A stretch of 64,000 bases of DNA from Ignavibacteria bacterium (GTDB taxonomy: Bacteria > Bacteroidota > Ignavibacteria > Tepidaquicellales > OLB5), in the NCBI GenBank assembly GCA_017303675.1, contig JAFLBX010000001.1, forward strand, positions 1,251,970-1,315,969, read 5' to 3'. Within the stretch, counting starts at the first letter, position 1; each line of letters opens with the position of its first letter. Below are positions 7,317 to 47,832 of the stretch, in pieces. The translations under genes were made by a program, and so were the position numbers. The notes beneath the pieces are model-generated. The model ran no database searches, was not told the DNA's origin, and was given only the letters and a program-made list of their open reading frames with translations.

Positions 7317-9533
7317 TTGAATCTAACCAGTGAGCTCAATGAAGAGCAAAGGAAAGCCGTTGAACAGATAGAAGGTCCCTGTATGATAGTTGCAGGTGCC
7401 GGAAGCGGGAAAACAAGGGTTTTAACATATAAAATAGCGTATTTAATTGAATCCGGCATTAATCCGTTTGAAATGCTTGCATTAACCTTTACAAATAAAG
7501 CTGCAAATGAAATGAAACAGCGTATCCATAAGCTGGCAGGAGCTACCGCCGAAAATCTTTGGATGGGAACATTTCATTCAGTATTTGCGAAAATTTTAAG
7601 AATAGAAGCTCAATATATAGGGTTTGACCGTAATTTTACTATATATGATGACGATGATTCCGAAAAAGTAGTTGAAGCCTGCATGAAGGAACTGGGTTTT
7701 TCTACTGATAACCCCAAGCCTAAAACAGTAAACGGCTATATTAAGGGTTTAAAGAACAAGCTCGTGCTTCCTGAAGATATCGGGAATGTTACCAATCCGT
7801 TCGAACGAATCGCAGTGCCCGTTTACAGGGAGTATCAGAACAGGCTTATAAAAAATAACGCAATGGATTTTGATGACTTGCTGATAAACCCGATAATTCT
7901 TTTCAGGTCAAACCCGGATGTGCTTGCCAAATATCAGAACCGGTTTAAGTTCATTCTGGTTGATGAGTACCAGGATACGAACCGCGCGCAGTATGAAATA
8001 GTTAAAATGCTTGCGCAGGGTCACGGAAATATTTCTGTTGTAGGTGATGACGCGCAAAGCATTTACCGCTGGCGCGGGGCTGAAATAGAAAATATCCTGA
8101 AATTCGAATCAGATTTTGAAAGCTGCAGTGTTTTTAAGCTTGAACAGAATTACCGCTCAACCAAAAATATACTTTCACTGGCTGATGAAGTAATAAAGAA
8201 TAATAAACGCCAGATCAAAAAAACCCTGTTTACCGATAACTATGACGGCGAAAAGGTCACGCTTGCTGAAGTTTTCAGCGACCGCGATGAAGGTATGATG
8301 GTTGTAAAATGGATCCTGCACGAAATTCAGAACCGGAAGCTGAACTTTAAGGATTTTGTGATCTTGTACAGGACCAATGCCCAGTCCAGGGTAATTGAAG
8401 ATGCGCTCAGAACAAACTCTATTCCCTATATAATTGTAGGCGGTGTAAAATTTTACCAGCGCAAGGAAATTAAAGATGTGCTCGCATACCTAAAGGTGCT
8501 TGTGAATCCCAAAGATGATGAGGCAATGACGCGTATATTAAAGCTTCGCGATGGTATCGGCGAACAGACGGTTGAAAAGCTGAAAGCTATGGCAAAGGAA
8601 ATTGCCAAATCAATTGCTGAAGTGCTGCTGGTTATGCTTGAAGAAAAAAATGCAGAAGGCGATAAAGCTAAACGCAGAACCAAAATAGAAAATGAGCTTA
8701 TCCGTGTTGCCGAGATAATAAAGAAATATAATGAAGTTAAAGAGGGACTCTCGCCAAGTGAGCTTGCAAGAAGCATTGTTGATGAGATCGGGATACTGCG
8801 TGAGCTCAGAAATGACGGCACCGATGAATCAATGGACAGAATGTATAATGTTCAGGAGCTGCTCTCGGGTATTTCTGAATATACCGATAATACCGAAGGC
8901 GCAACGCTGGAAGGTTTCCTGCAGGAAGTGAGCCTTGTTACAGATATAGATAAATATGATACAGATAAAAACGCTGTAACGCTTATGACAACTCACTCAA
9001 GCAAAGGGCTTGAGTTTCCCGTTGTTTTTATTACGGGACTCGAAGACGGGATATTTCCGCTTTCAAGCTCTATGATGGAGCAGGAAGAAATGGAAGAGGA
9101 GCGCAGGCTTTTTTACGTAGCCATAACACGCGCAATGCAGAAGCTGTATATGACCTATGCTCTGCAGCGTTACCGCTTTGGAAATGTAAGCTACCAGATG
9201 AAATCACGCTTTATCAATGAAATTGATACATCAAAGCTTGATTACCAGAAAAGCTCAGTTATGACAAGGCATAAGAGCCGCTCAAACAGGGAAGAAGGAA
9301 GCTCAATTAAGTATGAGTTCTATAATAATAAAACCAGTGATGACGTTTTAAATGATATATTCCGTGAGGATCTTGGTGTAAAAAAAGGAAGTGTTGTTTT
9401 CCATAATAATTTCGGCAAAGGCCGGGTTTTAGATGTATCCGGCAGGGGCGATGCGAAGAAGGCATCTATCCATTTTGATAAAGTGGGAGTGAAGAATATT
9501 ATTTTGAAATACGCGAATTTGACGATTAAATAA
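7317..9533 (+). CDS. pcrA: ATP-dependent 3'-5' DNA helicase, UvrD/PcrA type
   Basis: A 738-residue superfamily 1A helicase for repair and for clearing replication blocks. Visible motifs: Q-motif region LNEEQRKAV (7-15), Walker A AGAGSGKT (26-33), Walker B/motif II DEYQDTN (216-222), motif III VVGDDAQSIYRWRGA, motif IV QNYRST, motif V TTHSSKGLEFPVVF and motif VI EERRLFYVAITRA. The C-terminal ~60 residues form a Tudor-like tail (GSVVFHNNFGKGRVL) typical of PcrA. The start is TTG at 7317, behind a good promoter; the next residues NLTSELNEEQ match the family's beginning. Length is normal. Confidence 0.95.
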   Translation: MNLTSELNEEQRKAVEQIEGPCMIVAGAGSGKTRVLTYKIAYLIESGINPFEMLALTFTNKAANEMKQRIHKLAGATAENLWMGTFHSVFAKILRIEAQYIGFDRNFTIYDDDDSEKVVEACMKELGFSTDNPKPKTVNGYIKGLKNKLVLPEDIGNVTNPFERIAVPVYREYQNRLIKNNAMDFDDLLINPIILFRSNPDVLAKYQNRFKFILVDEYQDTNRAQYEIVKMLAQGHGNISVVGDDAQSIYRWRGAEIENILKFESDFESCSVFKLEQNYRSTKNILSLADEVIKNNKRQIKKTLFTDNYDGEKVTLAEVFSDRDEGMMVVKWILHEIQNRKLNFKDFVILYRTNAQSRVIEDALRTNSIPYIIVGGVKFYQRKEIKDVLAYLKVLVNPKDDEAMTRILKLRDGIGEQTVEKLKAMAKEIAKSIAEVLLVMLEEKNAEGDKAKRRTKIENELIRVAEIIKKYNEVKEGLSPSELARSIVDEIGILRELRNDGTDESMDRMYNVQELLSGISEYTDNTEGATLEGFLQEVSLVTDIDKYDTDKNAVTLMTTHSSKGLEFPVVFITGLEDGIFPLSSSMMEQEEMEEERRLFYVAITRAMQKLYMTYALQRYRFGNVSYQMKSRFINEIDTSKLDYQKSSVMTRHKSRSNREEGSSIKYEFYNNKTSDDVLNDIFREDLGVKKGSVVFHNNFGKGRVLDVSGRGDAKKASIHFDKVGVKNIILKYANLTIK

Positions 9534-9583
9534 CAAATAGCAAATACCAAATACCAAATAACAAATAACAAAAAGCAAATACC
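9534..9583. repeat. AT-rich tandem CAAATAnC repeat, left flank of four-helix-bundle gene
   Basis: Right after the pcrA stop are seven or eight imperfect 7-nt units of the form AACAAAT/ACCAAAT. The reverse-complement version (TTTGTTATTTGATATTTATT and on) lies at 10025-10060, just after the next gene. The unit also occurs alone at 58134-58165. Confidence 0.7.
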
Positions 9584-9634
9584 CGGGAAACACTGTTAAA
9601 TAATTCGAATTTATAAATTCTTAATAATATAGAA

Positions 9635-10024
9635 ATGAATAAAAGTGGAGATAATGCAATACTGGATAAATCTTTTTTGTTTGCGATCAGAATTATCAAA
9701 TTGTATCAATACTTATGTAAGGAACATAAGGAGTTTGTTTTGTCAAAGCAAATATTAAGAAGCGGAACATCTATAGGGGCAAATGCAGAAGAAGCTCATG
9801 GTGGTATTAGCGATGCAGATTTTTCGAACAAAGTTTCAACTTCATATAAAGAAGCAAGGGAAACTAAATATTGGCTCAGATTATTACATGCAGCCGGCTA
9901 TATTGAGCAAAAATTGTTTGATTCACTATTTTTAGACTGCGATGAATTGTGTAAATTATCCTATGCGATCATAGATACTACAAGAATCAAAAAGAGGAAT
10001 AAAAATTCGCGAAACGAAAATTAA
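9635..10024 (+). CDS. Four-helix-bundle protein (23S rRNA IVS-encoded family)
   Basis: A 129-residue helical protein with the family's typical features: an R-x-x-KLYQYL-type first helix, LSKQILRSGTSIGANAEEAH (about 37-56), and KEARETKYWLRLLHAAGYI (about 71-89). Members are often found inside 23S rRNA intervening sequences or dropped between unrelated genes; the molecular role is unknown. Here it sits between pcrA and an EVE-domain gene, bracketed by AT-rich heptamer arrays in opposite orientation, as if the gene and arrays arrived as one cassette. The basic tail KKRNKNSRNEN is not part of the bundle. Confidence 0.88.
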   Translation: MNKSGDNAILDKSFLFAIRIIKLYQYLCKEHKEFVLSKQILRSGTSIGANAEEAHGGISDADFSNKVSTSYKEARETKYWLRLLHAAGYIEQKLFDSLFLDCDELCKLSYAIIDTTRIKKRNKNSRNEN

Positions 10025-10061
10025 CATTTGTTATTTGATATTTATTATTTAATATTTGTTT
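10025..10061. repeat. AT-rich heptamer array, right flank of four-helix-bundle gene
   Basis: Units such as ATTTGTT, ATTTGAT, ATTTATT and ATTTAAT follow the stop codon. They are the inverse complement of the CAAATAAC units at 9534-9583, so the gene lies between inverted low-complexity arms. The array ends at the ATG of the next gene (10062). Confidence 0.6.
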
Positions 10062-10502
10062 ATGAAATTTTTTCTACTCAAAACAGAGCCAACAGTTTAT
10101 TCATACTCAGACCTTGAGCTTGATAAAAAAGCTGTATGGGATGGGGTCACTAGTCCGGGCGGATTGTTTCAGATCAAAACTGCCCGCAAGGGCGATATAG
10201 CGTTCATTTATCACACAGGAGGCGAAAAACAGGTTGTGGGAATTTGCGAAATTACCACAGATCCGTATGTTGATCCCAAGGCAGGCAATCCGAAAATTTA
10301 TATTTTTGATATTAAACCTAAGAGAAGGCTTCCGAATCCCGTTACGCTTGAGCAGATCAAAATAGATAAACGCACCAGTGATTCAAGAATTGTAAAAGAA
10401 GGCAGGCTTTCGGTTCAGCCTGTTGATGAAAAAGTGTGGAATGCAATACTGCAAATGTCGGGACTTGAGCCGAATACAGTATTTTCTAAAAACGGGAAAT
10501 AG
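10062..10502 (+). CDS. EVE-domain protein
   Basis: A 146-residue EVE (PUA-like) domain protein. It starts with FFLLKTEPTVYSYSDLE, the usual beginning of the family, and continues through WDGVTSPGG, KGDIAFIYHTGGEKQVVGI and SDSRIVKEGRLSVQPVDEKV. EVE domains are small folds thought to recognise modified bases in DNA or RNA; the cellular role of this stand-alone type is not settled. A TTG two codons upstream is in frame, but ATG 10062 fits the family start. The start lies at the edge of the flanking repeat array, so its leader probably comes from that repeat. Confidence 0.9.
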   Translation: MKFFLLKTEPTVYSYSDLELDKKAVWDGVTSPGGLFQIKTARKGDIAFIYHTGGEKQVVGICEITTDPYVDPKAGNPKIYIFDIKPKRRLPNPVTLEQIKIDKRTSDSRIVKEGRLSVQPVDEKVWNAILQMSGLEPNTVFSKNGK

Positions 10503-45758: not shown

Positions 45759-46421
45759 TCAGTCGTTCCAAACAAGCTCAAACAGAAGAAATGAAGCTGT
45801 TATTACTACAATTGTGTAAGATACAGTCATCTGTATCTCACCAGCAATCGCTCCAAACGGCGCGCCTTCTATTGAAAGAGTTGTTGCGCTAATGGATGCC
45901 AGCAAAAGCGGCAGCAGCAGCGGGAAAGAAAGCACCGGGTACAGAGTACCCTTGGAGCTGGCCTTGGAGATCAGCGCTGCGATTATTGTCATTACTGCAG
46001 AAAGTCCCAGGGTGCCGAGCCCTATTGTAAGTGAAAATAAACCTAGATCACGAATATCAAGCCCGGTGATAATTATATATAAAAATATTATGAAGAAATT
46101 TATCAGGATTGTAAGTATAGTATTGAAAATAAGCTTTCCCAGGAAAACGGCTTTGGCATCAGAGCTGAGCTTAAGGACAAGCGAGGTTCCGCGTTCTTCT
46201 TCTGATACGAAGACCCTTGAGAGTCCGTTGGATGTTGCAAAGAAAATAATTATCCACAAGAGCCCTGAGTTCATTTCGGCTGAAAGCTTATCTTCGCCGA
46301 GCGAAAATTTTATCACCGAAATAACAACTATTATGAACATAAGAAGCGCATTAACGGCATAGCGGGTGCGTATTTCGCTGTTAAAATCTTTTTTACATAT
46401 TGCCAGTGCCTGCTTAAACAT
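45759..46421 (-). CDS. ccmB: Heme exporter membrane subunit CcmB
   Basis: A 220-residue six-helix membrane protein of the CcmB family. It begins with a cytoplasmic KQALAICKKDFNSEIRTRYA, followed by helices, and keeps VSEEERGTSLVLKLSSDAKA and the ISKASSKGTLYPVLSFPLLL segment typical of CcmB. With CcmA (47185) it forms the ABC transporter of system I cytochrome c maturation, which releases heme-loaded CcmE. ccmA and ccmB are normally adjacent; here a GxxExxY gene with flanking repeats separates them. ccmC and later genes are not present downstream in this window. Confidence 0.9.
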   Translation of the reverse strand: MFKQALAICKKDFNSEIRTRYAVNALLMFIIVVISVIKFSLGEDKLSAEMNSGLLWIIIFFATSNGLSRVFVSEEERGTSLVLKLSSDAKAVFLGKLIFNTILTILINFFIIFLYIIITGLDIRDLGLFSLTIGLGTLGLSAVMTIIAALISKASSKGTLYPVLSFPLLLPLLLASISATTLSIEGAPFGAIAGEIQMTVSYTIVVITASFLLFELVWND

Positions 46422-46447: not shown

Positions 46448-46565
46448 GAACACGGATTTGACGGATTGTACTGATGTACACTGATTGAATTATGGTAATT
46501 TATTAATTTCATTTTATTATATTTTTATCCGTTGTAATCTGTGTTATCAGTGCCATCGGTGTTCT
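46448..46565. repeat. Direct repeat R1, ccmB side of GxxExxY cassette
   Basis: 118 bases starting GAACACGGATTTGACGGATT and ending TCGGTGTTCT. They match 47065-47181 in the same orientation with only a handful of differences (about nine in ten bases equal by eye). Each repeat also has short inverted ends (GAACAC ... GTGTTC). Confidence 0.9.
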
Positions 46566-46590
46566 ATTTCCTCAATAAGGAATTAACCAA

Positions 46591-47001
46591 TTATACAGGT
46601 TTCACTGATAACTTCTTTTTATCATTTGTAAAAATCTTTCTTTTGAATTCAGGTTTTTTGCCAAAGTTTAAAAGCAAACCTACTTCTGCATCAGTTGCTT
46701 TCAGATAATTGAGCAGCTGCAGTTCGTTTGCTGAAGAAATAGTTTCATTAGCTTTTAATTCAATTATTATTTTTTTATCAGCCATAATATCGGCAAAATA
46801 TTCGCCTACGCAATGACCTTTATAAAATACGCTGATTGGTTTCTGTTTTTCATTAATAATTCCTTGTTCAATGAGCTCAATATTCATCGCATTTTCATAT
46901 ACTTTTTCAAGGAAACCATAACCTAATTCATTATATACTGTATAAAAGCAATTAAGAATCTTATCGGTTATCTCTTTATGCAGTAAGTTTGTATAGATCA
47001 T
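46591..47001 (-). CDS. GxxExxY family protein
   Basis: A 136-residue member of the GxxExxY family: the naming motif is GYGFLEKVYENAM (G-x-x-E-x-x-Y), followed by FADIMADKKIIIELKA, which looks like the D-(x)n-E-x-K core of PD-(D/E)xK nucleases, and LQLLNYLKATDAEVGLLLNF. Function is unknown; nuclease activity is inferred from the fold only. It is wedged between ccmA and ccmB and bracketed by ~118-bp direct repeats, a setting that points to a mobile or formerly mobile cassette. Same strand as the ccm genes, so it may not block their expression. Confidence 0.9.
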   Translation of the reverse strand: MIYTNLLHKEITDKILNCFYTVYNELGYGFLEKVYENAMNIELIEQGIINEKQKPISVFYKGHCVGEYFADIMADKKIIIELKANETISSANELQLLNYLKATDAEVGLLLNFGKKPEFKRKIFTNDKKKLSVKPV

Positions 47002-47064
47002 TCTTGTTAAACAATAAATTTAGTATTCTTCTCATTCTTAGAATTCTTAAATATTTATTTTTTG

Positions 47065-47181
47065 GAACACGGATTTGACGGATTGTACTGATCTACACTG
47101 ATACAATTATGGTAATTTGTTAATTTCATTTGATTATATTTTATCCGTTAAAATCTGCGTTATCAGTGTCATCAGTGTTCT
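47065..47181. repeat. Direct repeat R2, ccmA side of GxxExxY cassette
   Basis: 117 bases, the partner of 46448-46565. It ends 4 bases before the ccmA stop codon (47185-47187 on the minus strand), so the cassette fills the ccmA-ccmB junction almost exactly. Confidence 0.9.
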
Positions 47182-47184
47182 ATT

Positions 47185-47832
47185 CTAGCTTTGTTTCATC
47201 TCATTCAGGTTTATTTCGTTATTGCATAATGAGCGTTCGTGGGCATCATTGGTTGCAATTATTAGTATACGCTCTTTTTTATATTCATTTGAAATATCAT
47301 CTACCACTGAAATTCCTTCGAGATCGAGATTACTTGTCGGTTCATCAAGCAGCAGAACCTGCGGCTTGTGCAGAATTGCGAATGCAATTTTGAGGCGCTG
47401 TTTCATTCCCGATGAATAAATTTTCAGCAGGTCATTTTTCCTGTGGAATAACCCTACTCTTTTGAGTGCCTCTTCAATATTTTCATGGCCCCAGCCGCGG
47501 ATATCTGAAATTATCTTCAGGTTTTCGTACCCGGTGAACTCATCATACAGGTTAAGATAAGGCGATACAAATCCGATGTATTTATAAATATTTTCTTTTT
47601 TAATCTTGTCGGTTCCGCTGAAAAGATTCAGCTCGCCGGAGGACTGCATTAATATATTCGCTATTATTTTAATGAGGGTTGATTTACCTGAGCCGTTGCG
47701 TCCGGTAATGGCAGTTGCACTGCCTGATGTAAGCTCGAAATTTACATTTTCAAATATAGGTTTTCTATCGAATTTTCTTGTAAGGTTAACTGCCTGCAGC
47801 TTCATTTTCTGATCGGGTATAATTTCGGGCAT
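47185..47832 (-). CDS. ccmA: Heme exporter ATP-binding subunit CcmA
   Basis: A 215-residue ABC ATPase. Walker A GRNGSGKST, signature region YSSGMKQRLKIA, Walker B VLLLDEPTSNLD. The short length, the 'S-S-G-M-K-Q-R' signature and the linkage to ccmB identify CcmA of cytochrome c maturation. An internal ATG nine codons in (MKLQAVN) is an alternative start. Eleven bases separate it from the thioesterase gene upstream. Confidence 0.85.
   Translation of the reverse strand: MPEIIPDQKMKLQAVNLTRKFDRKPIFENVNFELTSGSATAITGRNGSGKSTLIKIIANILMQSSGELNLFSGTDKIKKENIYKYIGFVSPYLNLYDEFTGYENLKIISDIRGWGHENIEEALKRVGLFHRKNDLLKIYSSGMKQRLKIAFAILHKPQVLLLDEPTSNLDLEGISVVDDISNEYKKERILIIATNDAHERSLCNNEINLNEMKQS

Follow-up and report, generated by a model that had tools for sequence, protein, structure and literature searches.

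Why does a small gene of the GxxExxY family lie between ccmA and ccmB, with near-identical repeats on either side of it, and how did it get there? The locus is part of a 64,000-nt window, the whole stretch of DNA that was analysed, from contig JAFLBX010000001.1 of an Ignavibacteria bacterium, and its coordinates are given here as positions in that window. Reading along the operon on the minus strand, a ccmA-like ABC ATPase gene (47185..47832) is the upstream neighbor, followed by the hairpin unit R2 (47065..47181), the GxxExxY gene (46591..47001, 136 aa), a second hairpin unit, R1 (46448..46565), and the downstream neighbor ccmB (45759..46421). The original prediction had placed the gene and both repeats at these positions and had described the repeats as near-identical, equally oriented and bounded by GAACAC...GTGTTC, with R2 ending four bases from the ccmA stop codon, and all of this was reproduced: R1 and R2 are 91% identical across 117-118 nt in the same orientation, both have these ends, each is a hairpin (RNA z of about -2.3 each), and the distance from R2 to the ccmA stop codon measures 4 nt. 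In gene orientation R2 consists of a left arm, GAACACTGATGACACTGATAACGCAGAT, an AT-rich loop and a right arm, ATCAGTGTAGATCAGTACAATCCGTCAAATCCGTGTTC, both arms being built of tandem RCNGAT motifs. Chance similarity was ruled out, with R1 matching R2 as query at E 4.9e-42; a search of the whole genome with R2 returned no long match besides R2 itself and R1, and matches of 42-49 nt at two further places. A scan of the repeats and the interval for open reading frames and transposases found GxxExxY to be the sole gene between the repeats, with no notable ORF in R1 or R2; no known transposase, the mark of a composite transposon or IS, lies in or between the repeats. Comparison of the locus with Rfam returned a single sub-threshold plant miRNA match (E 0.73) and nothing of note. 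By sequence, the window gene is a clear GxxExxY family member: its protein matches TIGR04256 (E 3.6e-38, 130.5 bits, cut-off 35) and PF13366 PDDEXK_3 (E 9.8e-40, 136 bits, cut-off 22). We know of no function for this family (TIGR04256 / PF13366). The ccmB gene matches PF03379 (E 1.6e-21), and the neighboring ATPase scores 109.8 bits, under the strict CcmA equivalog cut-off of 131.6; because it adjoins ccmB, CcmA is its natural name.

Comparing this junction across the family gives the direction of change. CcmB was detected in 14 of 15 family genomes, and in 10 of these 14 ccmA and ccmB overlap or lie at most 34 nt apart, so the ccmA-GxxExxY-ccmB order is not ancestral and, on this comparison, the insertion is derived. 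This supports the earlier idea that the unit moved in and goes against the ancestral order that had been named as its potential refutation. The junction is filled in the source genome, in G013, which has a hairpin, the GxxExxY gene, an extra arm and another hairpin, and in G010, which has the gene inside a single inverted arm pair; in G004 the contig stops inside an arm. The paired hairpins are 91% and 89% identical within genomes and 72-76% identical between genomes, so within each genome the copies have been made alike, by homogenisation or renewal. The notion of a repeat-bounded cassette survives as far as arrival is concerned, but the direct pair seen here is better described as two complete hairpin units, homogenised within the genome. 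The nearest empty sites are too diverged from the filled ccmA-ccmB junctions, and from those at mutS-tadA described below, for a target-site duplication or an exact insertion point to be read.

The source genome encodes eight GxxExxY genes, the other seven being 31-43% identical to the window protein, and all eight have repeats close to the ORF: six have inverted pairs and two have direct hairpin copies. The repeat sequences differ from locus to locus. A search of other GxxExxY genes for the repeat, which the original prediction had suggested, accordingly found repeats of the same kind, but long direct repeats did not hold up as a general boundary, most loci having one inverted arm pair around the gene. 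The 115 usable loci to which we extended the comparison come from three sets: 80 loci in named genomes, which span about ten phyla and include one from a Methanosarcinales archaeon, 29 further loci within the phylum and the eight of the source genome. The first sample used a four-sequence subset as query, all eight of the genome's own proteins being too diverse, and is biased to the NFN subfamily; a second sample, with the window protein as query and relatives from 247 genomes, was drawn to offset this bias. The inverted-arm score has a median of 21 at the 115 loci, compared to 11 for 317 control ORFs from the same loci and also 11 when left and right arms are paired by permutation, and it reaches 17, the controls' 95th percentile, at 84 of the 115. 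About a quarter of the loci lack clear inverted arms, and at some the arms are one-sided or chiefly direct copies. The arms are tandem RCNRA(G/T) motifs (CRCNRAG-like) whose spacing has its mode at 9 nt and is mostly 8-11 nt, and the autocorrelation likewise peaks at 9 nt. They sit close to the gene, with a median of 12 nt from arm end to start codon and 1 nt from stop codon to arm. Where GxxExxY genes lie between two co-directional genes, 83 point in the operon direction and 6 are opposed, by simple ORF-based gene models, and a scan for promoter-like sites at the loci counted no more than in shuffled sequence; this orientation bias, together with the lack of a promoter-like excess, suggests that transcription of GxxExxY is driven by the host.

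What, then, is being preserved in the arms? At 80 loci, and with the caveat that motifs were chosen in the left arm, the left and right arms have the same base in 96-98% of cases at fixed motif positions, in 61% at the free base of the motif and in 65-67% in the spacers (p 5e-47). Left-right changes that keep a G-U pair are not in excess at these 80 loci (124 vs 153, p 0.09). Because the motif is kept while the spacers drift, and G-U pairs are not favored, these patterns point to arms that are recognised as DNA sequence rather than through RNA pairing. That the arms are held by RNA base pairing was not supported, the mismatches gathering at the free motif base and the spacers. The motif also follows the protein: RCNRAT arms go with proteins that have NFG in their C-terminal part, and RCNRAG arms with NFN proteins (Fisher p 2e-10), and RAT arms, predicted for further relatives of the window protein, were found at 25 of 25 readable loci, a few of which are shared with the first sample. 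A tree of 143 GxxExxY proteins has a deep split (support 100/96) into a clade of 41 rows, with 35 RAT, 0 RAG and 6 unclear arms, and one of 102 rows, with 79 RAG, 1 RAT and 22 unclear arms. Three of the source-genome proteins fall in the RAT clade and five in the RAG clade, scattered over the tree, and both arm types are present in this one genome, each with the matching protein type. Taken together, the alignments and the tree show the arm motif to be co-inherited with the protein clade. This match reflects mainly one deep switch, which means that arms travel with their gene and not that there were many independent co-changes; the small number of independent switch events counts against the explanation we favor below.

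If gene and arms form a unit, one might expect to see it come and go between related species, and the mutS-tadA junction, compared within the genus, does this. Two genomes are empty there, and in a third the spacer is unrelated; the source genome and G008 have the same GxxExxY with RAG-type arms; in G006 and G007 the junction is occupied by another GxxExxY, of about 33% identity to the first, whose arms are RAT; and G005 (L174) and G014 (L172) have arms without a gene, G014 with two arm copies. Junctions therefore fill independently and may lose the gene yet keep the arms. The package of gene and motif recurs across many phyla, comes and goes among related species, and can leave behind copies of the motif alone. 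Such copies are also dispersed: a census of the source genome, covering the window and another 1.19 Mb in stretches (1.25 Mb in all), found 14 triple arrays, compared to none in shuffled sequence, and at least 8 of them lie away from any GxxExxY gene. Across the phylum, GxxExxY genes are present in 29 of 61 genomes sampled, and RAG arrays occur in 15 of the 29 genomes that have the gene but in none of the 32 that lack it (p 1e-6, a value weakened by the partial phylogenetic clustering of the gene-less genomes in a few families); within the same class alone, the counts are 7 of 9 and 0 of 6 (p 0.007). A reversed control pattern was absent from all 61 genomes. By comparison of places, about 111 of the 119 RAG arrays do not adjoin a GxxExxY gene. 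Solo repeats thus favor gene-bearing genomes, the opposite of the indifference to GxxExxY genes that had been named as a further refutation. The looser RAT pattern is enriched with the gene but not exclusive to it, occurring also where there is no close relative of the window protein. As some of its matches come from S23-type heptads and coding tandem repeats, it is not a clean test of presence or absence. The RCNGAT triple pattern is matched 186 times in G061, where close relatives of the window protein occur only as fragments on two contigs. Elsewhere we noted a solo RCNGAT hairpin, about 80 bp long (L004, 1501-1585), and a solo half-arm (L003, about 1506-1549), both with no gene.

The protein offers a candidate activity. 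A sequence search of solved structures with GxxExxY found no matching chain. For the AF2 model of the window protein (pLDDT 90), Foldseek returned Cas4 (4ic1, E 9e-4); the best fold match was Cas4 SSO0001 (VIA Z 10.4, 109 aligned, rmsd 5.1), with further matches to restriction-type folds and to the archaeal Hjc (Hjc Z 7.5). E32, D71, E81 and K83 are invariant in the alignment, and Q95 and Y99 (QxxxY) nearly so; we take the D, ExK and QxxxY of GxxExxY to be the signature of the RecB/Cas4 superfamily. On this model, GxxExxY has a RecB/Cas4-type PD-(D/E)XK fold and is a predicted nuclease. It shares this fold and the D...ExK plus QxxxY signature with Cas4, lambda-exonuclease and RecB-type nucleases and with Hjc, but is much shorter, at about 125-136 aa. 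The catalytic pattern is retained in 141 of 147 GxxExxY proteins, and, judging from the coding sequences, the protein is shown to be intact and under strong purifying selection in its host lines (dN/dS 0.02 at dS 1.5 between the source and G013 orthologues). It has no separate DNA-binding domain, which counts against its reading a 6-nt motif array. In a side observation, a GxxExxY domain lies within an 883-aa open frame, possibly a fusion (G040:C9:91047-91385, G052:C22:338274-338612, G068:C1:72351-72689).

We propose, with a probability of roughly two in three, that the insert is a mobile module consisting of a predicted GxxExxY nuclease and its cognate inverted arms, moving in a manner like that of REP-RAYT systems. 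GxxExxY, encoded once per element and probably expressed from a host promoter, would bind its motif. That it recognises its own arrays is strongly implied, and the DNA would most likely be single-stranded or in hairpin form. As its fold and residues suggest, it would then nick or cut DNA at the arm hairpins or at single-stranded ends, and repair or replication could put the gene with its arms, or arms alone, elsewhere. Gene and arms would insert together into the short gaps that separate co-transcribed genes, in the operon direction, and arms alone would be left behind or spread as solo arrays and hairpins. Cutting by the nuclease would thus be what drives the movement of the arms, and the self-spreading role originally suggested for the nuclease fits the evidence. 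REP-RAYT systems combine repetitive extragenic palindromes (REP) and a Y1 tyrosine transposase associated with them (RAYT; PMC2817692, PMC3116915). The GxxExxY element resembles them in having a small, single, predicted-nuclease gene between inverted repeats and dispersed solo repeats tied to the presence of the gene. It differs in its enzyme, PD-(D/E)XK instead of HUH, in arms made of 3-4 motifs of 6-7 nt in tandem, at a spacing of about 9 nt, and in its position inside operons in one orientation; its enzyme matches only PF13366/TIGR04256 and is no Y1 HUH transposase, which places the element outside that group. Inverted ends and solo copies are also found in MITEs and in IS with terminal inverted repeats, from which the element differs in having no known transposase domain and in arm sequences that change between elements while the motif grammar is kept.

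Could the same architecture arise at the RNA level? The arms might pair in the operon mRNA with the gene in the loop, and release by RNase III would make the insertion tolerated, as in the intervening sequences (IVS) of 23S rRNA, where terminal inverted repeats form a stem that has an S23 ORF in its loop and is cut by RNase III (PMC4990558). Such IVS share with our element an ORF between inverted arms, a patchy distribution and insertion within a transcribed unit; the architecture is the same, S23 genes of the source genome are nested likewise in mRNA operons, and the strong operon co-orientation (83 vs 6) is also what one would expect. That the element is itself a 23S rRNA IVS was ruled out, the junction being ccmA-ccmB and the protein GxxExxY and not S23; GxxExxY is unrelated to S23 and lies at mRNA operon junctions, not in rRNA helices. 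Its arms favor recognition of a DNA motif over RNA pairing: changes that keep G-U pairs are not favored (124 vs 153), arm differences concentrate in the spacers and the free motif base and not along the stem, and at some loci the arms are mainly direct copies or one-sided. We consider an RNA-level element unlikely.

Slightly less likely again is that the arms are operators for autoregulation of GxxExxY, the gene being ordinary cargo or a defence gene carried by other means. Iterated motifs near the start codon and co-variation of motif and protein clade would be expected under autoregulation too, but the arms are equally present, in inverted form, after the stop codon, solo arrays lie far from any GxxExxY gene, arms persist at junctions without the gene, and promoter-like sites are no more numerous than in shuffles. 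Homologous recombination between long direct repeats, with the gene as a passive passenger, would fit the window and L008, where the copies are direct, as well as the homogenisation of repeat copies within genomes and the gene loss at mutS-tadA in G005, which leaves one hairpin. As a general mechanism it is disfavored and strikes us as very improbable, since most loci have one inverted pair only, G010 fills the same junction with a single inverted pair, and the co-inheritance of motif and protein is left without explanation; it may be a secondary route of gene loss.

Beyond this locus, the package of gene and motif seems to be a mobile genetic unit of a kind not yet described. In the open-access PMC literature, preprints lying outside it, we found no account of cognate arms for GxxExxY and nothing pertinent on the mobility of GxxExxY or S23. 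We find it tempting to speculate that, in bacteria and archaea alike, GxxExxY and its RCNRA(G/T) arms make up a class of mobile element of their own, with a stand-alone nuclease recognising and mobilising the arrays and S23 elements with 7-nt arms as a parallel case, although we would put this at slightly under even odds. The cognate motif gives the family a concrete, testable candidate substrate, and the arms could explain the CACAGAG-type repeats that are dispersed in these genomes. If the nuclease does move the arms, the REP-RAYT lifestyle would have been invented a second time, independently and with a different enzyme, and the parallel S23 elements would tie the system to the long-standing puzzle posed by intervening sequences in rRNA.

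The parallel is present in the window itself, where an S23 element spans 9528-10070 on the plus strand: an S23 / 23S_rRNA_IVP four-helix-bundle gene (9635..10024; PF05635, E 2.4e-26) lies between a left arm of tandem units of about 7 nt, CAAATAN (9528..9572), and an inverted right arm (10027..10070). All five S23 (PF05635) genes of the source genome are nested between arms of 7-nt period, outside rRNA, and matches to the S23 arms are dispersed in the genome; at L016, the S23 junction is filled, arm-only or empty depending on the species. A blind scan of the 1.25 Mb for ORFs between inverted arms recovered 4 GxxExxY, 5 S23 and 3 RAYT/IS200-like genes, along with AT-rich chance pairs. The last three genes, RAYT/IS200-like transposases between palindromic repeats (G000:C1 96969-97607, L214; C2 919893-920458, L256; C2 1022014-1022371, L261), have the known REP-RAYT architecture and are an internal control for the scan.
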